NCBI RefSeq assembly: GCF_037126435.1
Contig: NZ_CP147020.1
Location: 2,655,293 to 2,719,292 of the forward strand
DNA: 64,000 bases
Reading direction: 5' to 3'
From: Bernardetia sp. ABR2-2B
GTDB taxonomy: Bacteria > Bacteroidota > Bacteroidia > Cytophagales > Bernardetiaceae
This document shows, piece by piece, positions 2,625 to 32,056 of the stretch. The notes beneath the pieces are model-generated. The model was not told the origin of the DNA, did no database searches, and saw only the letters and a list, made by a program, of their open reading frames with translations. Both the position numbers and the translations under genes were made by a program. Every line of letters starts with the position of its first letter. Position 1 is the stretch's first letter.

Positions 2625-2765
2625 GAAGCTGTTTAAGAATACTCATTTTTTCTTAGAATTGAGTTGCAAACCCAGTTCTAAGGAAAAATAATAACATTGC
2701 CTTTGTTGGTGTTTTAGCGAAGCGACACCAACAAACACACCCAAAACCCATTCTTAAACAACTCC
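2625..2765 (+). mobile_element. 141-bp MITE-like element, intact copy A
   Basis: The ends are 16-bp inverted repeats (left GAAGCTGTTTAAGAAT, right ATTCTTAAACAACTCC), flanked by a 3-bp direct repeat ATT (2622-2624 and 2766-2768). Inside are two hairpins: one built on CTTAGAATTG / CAGTTCTAAGG, and one on TTTGTTGGTGT / ACACCAACAAA around TTTAGCGAAGCG. It has no coding capacity. It is the same length as the copy at 31825 and close to 90% identical by eye. A partial hairpin-2-like remnant follows at about 2768-2795. Confidence 0.8.
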
Positions 2766-3529: not shown

Positions 3530-3666
3530 TGATAAAGTATAATAAACCTTATCACGGTTTGTATTAAGGTAGTTCAGACATCTTGTCTGAACATAAAAAG
3601 TAGTATTTTATCCTATCCAACAGTCTGGAGAACTGTTATACAAAAATAACTGTGATAAAGTATAAT
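3530..3666. repeat. Hairpin pair bounded by 14-bp direct repeats
   Basis: TGATAAAGTATAAT occurs at 3530-3543 and again at 3653-3666. Between them are two hairpins: GTTCAGAC/GTCTGAAC (3572-3592, 5-nt loop) and AACAGT/ACTGTT (3619-3637). An outer inverted pair, TTATCAC (3549-3555) and GTGATAA (3652-3658), also brackets them. This occupies most of the 326-base gap between the amidase and the next gene; no coding sequence is seen there. Confidence 0.5.
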
Positions 3667-9913: not shown

Positions 9914-10466
9914 TTATACCATTGTCAAATCCACTTTACTTTTTTCTATTTCTGCGTAAGCTCTGGCACTACTCCAAATCCAATGGTGTGCTTCTGCTAC
10001 AAAACCTGCACGAACAGGATTTTGATGTGTATAATTGATACGTTGATGGAGCATATCTTGTGTAGTGAGTGCGACAGGATGACTATGTTGTAACCAAAAC
10101 TGAAAATCTTTATTTCTATGATTTTTTCTTTCCTGCACGTCCAAACATCCACAACATCCATTCTCTGCGACTTTCTTTTTCATTTTGTTCGATAGCTTTA
10201 CGAATATGACGAGAAGTAAAACTTTTTAAATCTCTGACAATATCCGAAAGTTCAAAACCTTCTTTTGCTCTGATAACTAAATGAACATGGTTTGTCATAA
10301 TGCAGTAGGCAAAAACCTCTAAACCTTTATTTTTCTGACAATAAACGACACTATCAATAAAAATCTCTCTATATTCATCTCTTGTGAAAATGTCAATCCA
10401 ATTTACGACCGTAAAAGTTATAAAATAAACATCATCAGAACTATGTATAGCATATTTTCTTCCCAT
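9914..10466 (-). pseudogene. REP-associated tyrosine transposase (RAYT, IS200-like), frameshifted
   Basis: Y1/HUH-family single-strand transposase of the kind that mobilises REP palindromes. The first part (from ATG 10466) has MGRKYAIHSSDDVYFITFTV, then the HUH motif in YCIMTNHVHLVI and DLKSFTSRHI. The C-terminal part, in another frame down to 9914, has KDFQFWLQHSHP, INYTHQNPVRAGFV (a YxHxNP segment probably carrying the nucleophile) and WSSARAY. The frames join if one A is removed from the six-A run at 10122-10127 (minus strand), giving about 183 aa, normal for the family. An indel, a sequencing error and slippage on the A run are all possible. The frame upstream of 10466 has an alternative start at 10517. 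Confidence 0.85.
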
Positions 10467-10530
10467 AAAAATAGTTTTTGTAGATTGTAAAATAGAAAGA
10501 TAAATAAAGTTTTCCACAAAAGGAATATCT

Positions 10531-27561: not shown

Positions 27562-27610
27562 TTACGAATGAGATAAAGATTATACTACTAGACAAAAACC
27601 ATTGATTCTT

Positions 27611-27642
27611 TATTTTTGTATAGGTCAGCCTCGTAGAGCAGA
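27611..27642 (+). promoter_or_regulatory. Promoter element and leader hairpin of the ABC operon
   Basis: TATTTTTG (27611-27618) fits the -7 consensus. Directly after it, GGTCAGCCTCGTAGAGCAG (then ACC) can fold as an imperfect hairpin. The same GGTCAGCC-N-GCAG hairpin recurs at 51591-51612. Confidence 0.45.
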
Positions 27643-27697
27643 CCGTTTGTAAAATACTCAGTTTATCATTCATAACTCATAATTTTATTCATTTACC

Positions 27698-31783: not shown

Positions 31784-31824
31784 ATTTTTAATTTTTATTA
31801 TCTAAATCAACAAAGATTATCACA

Positions 31825-31965
31825 GAAGTTGTTTAAGAATACTCATTTTTCCTTAGAACTGTGTTTGCAAACCCAGTTCTAAGGAAAAATAACACAGCCT
31901 TTGTTGGTGTTTTAGCGTAGCGACACCAACAAATATATCCACAAAGCCCATTCTTAAACAACTTC
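31825..31965 (+). mobile_element. 141-bp MITE-like element, intact copy B
   Basis: Ends are perfect 16-bp inverted repeats (GAAGTTGTTTAAGAAT / ATTCTTAAACAACTTC), flanked by a 3-bp direct repeat ACA (31822-31824, 31966-31968). Hairpin 1 has a perfect 16-bp stem TTTTTCCTTAGAACTG / CAGTTCTAAGGAAAAA enclosing the palindrome GTTTGCAAAC. Hairpin 2 pairs TTTGTTGGTGT with ACACCAACAAA. No coding capacity. The two differences from copy A inside the hairpin-1 left arm (C to T twice) leave G-U pairs in the plus-strand RNA. Confidence 0.85.
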
Positions 31966-32056
31966 ACAGTTATTTTGGAAAGCCTAAAAGTTTATAAAAA
32001 GTATATTTTAGATTAAACCTATCCTTGATTGTATTACTACACCAAGCAATAAAAAA

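Follow-up and report, generated by a model that had tools for sequence, protein, structure and literature searches.

A REP sequence inside a putative IS5-type MITE family of Bernardetia

Some IS5 groups of insertion sequences produce target duplications of 3 bp, and in bacterial MITEs of the Nezha, RUP, NEMIS and ERIC type a REP belonging to a resident RAYT is not known to us. As described in part of PMC3733652, these and other bacterial MITEs are, like the element treated here, non-coding, 70-300 bp long and bounded by terminal inverted repeats (TIRs), the likeness being one of description and not of the ends. Neither MITEs nor IS5-type elements nor REP/RAYT systems are new, and REPs enclosed in other palindromes have also been described (PMC3733652). 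In the passage of that source on Anabaena variabilis, REP dimers are regularly enclosed by another repeated inverted-repeat sequence, as are the REPs of our case, although a transposase of the enclosing repeat, a target duplication and half elements are not described there.

According to the relevant passages of PMC8266576, RAYTs cut REPs in vitro, the one studied doing so at the dinucleotides CT and CA, and the mechanism of dissemination is still to be elucidated. Members of IS200/IS605 generate no larger duplications, as stated in a passage of PMC2817692. For the subclass 2.6 RAYTs of Bacteroidetes, a section of PMC6006769 reports REPs without the canonical foot: the gene is flanked by 'atypical' structures that lack GT[AG]G and have copies elsewhere in the genome. 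The system described below is alike in these respects, but its foot is GCC and many of its copies travel inside DDE-type MITEs. A literature search in one open-access library found no description of this MITE family, none of DDE-type MITEs that carry REPs and have an identified partner insertion sequence (IS), and none of half elements bounded by a REP and flanked by long direct repeats, and nothing on insertion sequences of Bernardetia. REPs within DDE-type MITEs would give one direct route of spread, hitch-hiking, and half elements with long direct repeats would offer a concrete junction for a second, RAYT-dependent one.

The 141-bp element, its family and its partner insertion sequence

The window analysed is a stretch of 64,000 nucleotides from Bernardetia sp. 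ABR2-2B, whose genome comprises 5.38 Mb in 4 contigs (assembly 99.5% complete). A first-pass annotation had described in it two 141-bp transposed copies of a MITE-like element with 16-bp TIRs, 3-bp duplications and two stable hairpins. Checked on the sequence, positions and duplications are correct: copy 1, with IS5-type ends and a REP inside, lies at 2625-2765 (plus strand) between ATT at 2622-2624 and 2766-2768, and copy 2 at 31825-31965 (plus strand) between ACA at 31822-31824 and 31966-31968. The TIRs are perfect 16-mers in copy 2 (31825-31840, plus; 31950-31965, minus), whereas each end of copy 1 (2625-2640, plus; 2750-2765, minus) has one mismatch to the consensus. Hairpin 1, a conserved long palindrome around TTGCAA, occupies 2645-2689 in copy 1 and 31845-31890 in copy 2, both on the plus strand. 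It is followed on the same strand by the second structure at 2699-2735 and 31897-31933, in which an unpaired GCC (2699-2701 and 31897-31899) precedes a hairpin (2702-2735 and 31900-31933). Both copies fold far beyond shuffled sequence (plus strand, z of -7.1 and -11.9; 0 of 200 shuffles as good), and no listed ORF of at least 80 aa overlaps either of them.

With copy 2 as query, at least 40 full or nearly full matches were found in the ABR2-2B genome, the window pair included; this number is a lower bound, since 40 of the 184 first-look candidates were scored. The loci fetched from this genome contained 49 end pairs (each end with up to 3 mismatches, spacing 100-200 bp), and an identical 3-mer was present on either side in 42 of them. 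When all end pairs from this and other genomes were considered (n=86, among them insertion sequences and a small number of spurious pairings), 68 showed a 3-bp duplication; 1000 permutations of the right flanks gave 7.7 on average and 18 at most. The duplicated triplets are varied and AT-rich. Conservation differs by module, with identities of 95-97% in the ends, 94% in the REP and 89% in hairpin 1 versus 47-73% in the spacers. The element was matched in all seven Bernardetia genomes searched, ABR2-2B included, and in none of 28 other genomes of the order. Outside the genus, one of four genomes of the same family gave a match (best E 2.4e-5), and the single locus taken from it contains a 49-bp hairpin-1-like palindrome, these ends being absent within 200 nt.

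The flanking genes of both copies were followed in six sister genomes (G001 to G006). Between the orthologous flanking genes of copy 1, these ends are absent in all five genomes in which both flanks were matched (G001-G005), and the same holds for copy 2 in four of four (G001-G004). At the copy-2 locus, the gap between matched flanks measures 81, 48 and 70 nt in G001, G002 and G004 versus 267, 252 and 267 nt in ABR2-2B. At the copy-1 locus it is 160 nt in G002 versus 228 nt, while in G005 it is longer in the sister (320 versus 226 nt), and in G001, G003 and G004 the small flanking frame is likewise without a match. These comparisons involve one genome per species and intergenic DNA too diverged for a base-level reading of empty sites. 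The interpretation as a transposed MITE is upheld by the duplications, and the missing ends in orthologous intergenic regions are in keeping with it. Short (141 bp), non-coding, with 16-bp TIRs, many copies, a fixed 3-bp duplication and an autonomous relative that shares its ends, the two copies are confirmed, at the level of sequence comparison, as members of a MITE family.

The autonomous relative was found in sister genomes. In G001, a pair of these ends 947 bp apart, with the target duplication TTA, encloses two overlapping transposase frames, for which the Pfam profiles DUF4096, DDE_Tnp_4 and DDE_Tnp_1 all score above cut-off; with NCBIfam transpos_IS5_3, whose cut-off of 110 applies to the whole protein, the two pieces score 79.9 and 42.7 bits and so stay below it. 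This partner therefore has the DDE transposase of the IS5 type, and it resembles IS5-family elements and their derived MITEs in the combination of DUF4096 and DDE domains in two overlapping frames and in its short inverted repeats. Altogether, 12 end pairs are spaced 931-947 bp (11 in G001, one in G003), 10 of them with a 3-bp target duplication. What the MITE has in common with the 931-947 bp IS is the 16-bp inverted repeats and the 3-bp duplications, whereas its interior consists of hairpins, one of them a REP. The proposed mobilisation from outside the window, with the transposase acting in trans, hence has a fitting candidate, and the MITE copies would have spread by DDE cut-and-paste with the supplied IS5-type transposase.

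A search with the DDE piece of the partner IS (E 1e-5) gave no match in ABR2-2B, G002, G004 or G005, and in G006 there were two related matches, more distant or broken and without a pair of these ends. Since the IS5-type transposase was not detected in ABR2-2B, its MITEs are probably stranded there, that is, orphaned as far as the 99.5% complete assembly shows. Inspection by eye of four translated loci with single end-like 16-mers in this genome (L040-L043, of 20 fetched) revealed no transposase beside them. Another insertion sequence with DDE_Tnp_1, present in 16 like copies in ABR2-2B, was rejected as partner because its ends differ.

The REP sequence and associated RAYT genes

The first-pass annotation overlooked the REP nature of hairpin 2, about 40 copies of it outside the element and its copies beside RAYT genes. 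By its features, hairpin 2 is a REP sequence, with an unpaired GCC and a covarying stem-loop. Its core, TTGGTGTTTTAGCGNAGCGACACCAA (REP1), has 90 sites in the ABR2-2B genome at up to 1 mismatch, the reversed pattern used as control having none. At up to 3 mismatches, 91 places were obtained, 40 of which lie between both MITE ends, 10 beside a right end only, one beside a left end only and 40 beside neither. Unpaired GCC precedes 80 of the 91 places, the foot not having been used for their selection. Over all genomes, and among the matches listed, GCC stands ahead of the core in 170 of 222 places; the outer pair of the stem follows Watson-Crick rules in 168 of them all (TA 79, GC 69, CG 15, AT 5). 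A further GCC count (127 of 161) was discarded because the search pattern itself required such a foot. REP1 is thus a dispersed palindrome, on one side of which an unpaired foot is conserved, GCC instead of the canonical GTAG or GTGG. The window element holds one REP1 copy, not the unit of two inverted REPs that makes a REPIN. Positions 1278-1303 of the window also hold a degenerate copy of REP1, which has 3 mismatches and lacks the GCC foot.

At one locus of ABR2-2B (L115), five REP hairpins in alternating orientation lie directly upstream of a Y1-type gene with an uninterrupted frame. Its protein scores 77 bits with NCBIfam REP_Tyr_transpos, just below the cut-off of 80, and 23 bits with Pfam Y1_Tnp, which equals the cut-off. 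The protein motifs NHIH, WQ and YVHHNP closely resemble the subclass 2.6 motifs listed in PMC6006769 (NH[LIV]H, WQ, YIH[QN]NP), a likeness by motifs and not by tree. Genes related to this RAYT were found in 6 of 7 genomes, and REP1-like hairpins at 7 of the 20 loci of such genes. In six of the 20, the hairpin is within about 260 bp of the gene (L265, which is L115, and L266, L268, L270, L272 and L278), on both gene sides in L268, and REP1 is in this sense associated with RAYT genes. No REP1-like hairpin was seen at the other 13 loci, and five of these hairpin-less genes are 57-60% identical to the query, as near to it as four hairpin-bearing ones (55-57%). The window itself contains a Y1 (IS200/RAYT-like) transposase frame at 10116-10517 (minus strand; Pfam match at about 10155-10394), with no adjacent REP1-like hairpin seen.

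REP1 therefore occurs dispersed alone, inside the 141-bp MITE, in other MITE frames and beside RAYT genes. Considering ends, partner IS and REP, we regard the 141-bp element as very probably a DDE/HUH chimera, in which a non-autonomous MITE of the IS5 type carries a REP sequence. The RAYT would recognise the REP (GCC plus hairpin) as single-stranded DNA, and every MITE insertion would therefore also seed a new REP.

The association of REPs with MITEs extends to other frames. A second REP family, REP2, has 36 sites in ABR2-2B and fills 161-bp and similar elements with the same 16-bp ends, standing as inverted doublets in those of 161 bp. The 49 end pairs of this genome contain REP1 in 40 cases and REP2 in 7, the remaining 2 being read as degenerate REP1; this share of REP-bearing copies is biased upward, since part of the loci were fetched by REP patterns. 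REP2 is also found inside elements with ATACTACTAGACA ends. A MITE with GGTGGTGTTACAC ends holds REP1, has duplications of mostly about 8 bp and is present in at least 17 full copies (16 in G004, one in G006), and another MITE of G004, with GAGTACTGGACA ends that resemble those of an IS on a small contig of ABR2-2B, holds REP1 as well. In 28 fetched loci with Y1-type genes, some of them overlapping, no REP2 was found near the gene at up to 5 mismatches. Among ten end pairs inspected in G001, neither REP1 nor REP2 is present in six MITEs of 161-170 bp or in two very short pairs, so the REP is dispensable for mobility by the ends.

Several single loci of this kind deserve mention. A REP2 copy in the window (27622-27644, minus strand) stands beside one end-like sequence of the ATACTACTAGACA type (27582-27597), and the stretch 27582-27644 is apparently a half element. 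In G001, a third interior occurs between the same ends at the loci L285 (509-678), L288 (501-662) and L321-L324; these elements of 161-170 bp hold several other hairpins and lack both REP1 and REP2. In the same genome, at C1:910783-910818 (L287) two MITE ends stand nearly back to back, 36 bp in total, forming a palindrome of ends only. In ABR2-2B, L303 and L305 resemble the GGTGGTG-type MITE of G004, each with REP1, and one of them is a right half only.

Half elements and long direct repeats

We call half element a stretch from the REP edge to the MITE end. In eight of the 10 right-end-only places of ABR2-2B (L048 and L055 were dropped), identity to the MITE runs from the REP downstream to the end, and upstream it drops beyond the GCC. 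Some of the 10 places are no true halves, L048 being a full element of 178 bp, L055 retaining a decayed left end and L046 having a sequence like an end close upstream. In two of the 10, a direct repeat extends to the left edge, with 24 bp in L099 and 17 bp in L054, the latter with 3 extra bases on the right side; in L293, also from ABR2-2B, a 17-bp repeat does not reach the left edge. For the GGTGGTG MITE of G004, 17 places were classed as half or other among the matches listed, 15 remaining after L171 and L197 had been set aside as probable full elements. Among these 15, repeats of 18-43 bp reach the REP edge in eight, seven of which also abut the MITE end, and no direct repeat was found in five. 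Within this type, the repeat of L242 lies in simple repeated sequence and does not abut on the right side, and L260 has its edge 6 nt before the core, unlike the 10-11 nt elsewhere. Repeats that are present but not abutting were seen in L188 and in one of the two places of L168.

Direct repeats were also evaluated with a fixed score, using swapped flanks as controls. By this measure, they were found in 3 of 10 right-end places of ABR2-2B versus 0 of 45 controls, and in 15 of 109 end-less places of other genomes versus 1 of 540 (among the matches listed). Full elements had none, neither in ABR2-2B (0 of 40; controls 0 of 198) nor, among the matches listed, in other genomes (0 of 16; controls 0 of 73), and none were detected at the end-less REP copies of ABR2-2B (0 of 40; controls 0 of 197). 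The right-end class of other genomes, with 1 of 6 (L286, where the repeat equals the end sequence) versus 4 of 25 controls among the matches listed, is small and uninformative. Tandem arrays may account for two loci with long repeats, namely L199 (a REP without ends; 45 and 25 bp) and L239 (72 bp).

These observations suggest that half elements with direct repeats of 17-43 bp stem from REP-driven re-mobilisation from within MITEs. With less certainty than for the preceding steps, the RAYT would sometimes cut at the 5' edge of the REP inside a MITE, leaving half elements, part of them with such repeats. As a broader and tentative model, which we consider possible but rather doubtful, a DDE transposase of the IS5 type would spread REPs inside MITEs, and the HUH RAYT would re-mobilise them from inside, cutting precisely at the 5' foot of the REP, taking the end of the MITE as second boundary and producing target duplications of 17-43 bp, with several MITE families serving as vehicles of the RAYT. 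If this is true, REP spread would have left a visible signature in the junctions at the edges of half elements.

The same structures might instead have arisen without the RAYT, by a local duplication in tandem beside a MITE and later loss of the full copy or by template switching of replication at the hairpin, and we take this to be a serious possibility that falls somewhat short of even chances. Under this explanation the right edge would simply be the old MITE end, and most half elements of ABR2-2B indeed lack a long repeat. REPINs clustered in tandem together with their flanks have been described (PMC3116915), tandem REP arrays occur in L115 and L199, and L158 (CAKZOK010000022.1) is a chimera in which a second MITE sits within the left part of a GGTGGTG MITE, apparently joined via the common REP1. 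However, in 9 of the 10 cases in which the repeat reaches the edge (those of G004 among the matches listed), the left edge lies 10-11 nt before the hairpin core and 6-7 nt outside the stem, which is tighter than expected from polymerase stalling. Moreover, the units begin with CA in six of the eight G004 cases (among the matches listed) and with CT in L099, the dinucleotides cut by the RAYT studied in that part of PMC8266576, although bases common to repeat and unit blur the exact cut.

Free REP copies and hairpin 1

It could also be argued that the element is a plain IS5-type MITE and that the free inner hairpins are decayed MITE remains, not a REP with a transposase of its own. The right MITE end stands alone at 10 of the 91 places of ABR2-2B, and 11 of the 40 end-less copies have the MITE-type 3' stem, with the same 5' edge and ragged 3' sides; therefore, some free REP copies are probably derived from MITEs. 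As a general explanation, this origin is improbable. The MITE-type 3' stem is missing in 29 of the 40 end-less copies, at least two of which (L303 and L305) look like, and perhaps are, parts of another MITE, and the unpaired GCC is retained in 33 of the 40. The same kind of hairpin adjoins RAYT genes, and REP1 also occurs in MAGs labelled as other Bacteroidota, where the best nearby match to these ends, among the matches listed, has at least 4 mismatches in 13.

As for hairpin 1, transcription of the element had been hinted at from G-U pairs in the plus-strand RNA, and a test by compensatory changes had been proposed. Two-sided changes do exceed those of shuffles, with 16 cells versus 5.5 (0 of 500 shuffles as high) and 4 pairs versus 1.8 (36 of 500 as high), but a bias towards the plus strand is lacking. 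Among 35 distinct copies, departures to G-U affect 11 pair types and those to A-C 12, an A-C departure on the plus strand being a G-U of the opposite strand. The corresponding cells number 29 and 13, an excess not counted as evidence for RNA because 16 of the 29 stem from two pair positions common to many copies. A scan of the window with Rfam found no family at gathering score, so that neither strand-biased wobble nor an Rfam match speaks for a transcribed RNA element, and the hint from the G-U pairs was not borne out. Hairpin 1 is, on present alignments, a conserved palindrome without plus-strand RNA bias. That the element is mainly an RNA of transcribed hairpins, with mobility secondary, is therefore unlikely despite its very stable folds and the two-sided changes above shuffles, given the even pair types, the Rfam result and the fact that DNA-level processes can likewise maintain palindromes.

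Apart from the MITE copies, the window carries a further dispersed repeat, about 120 bp long and located at about 3539-3658, which has many copies of about 80-95% identity in G002 and occurs in other sister genomes as well.
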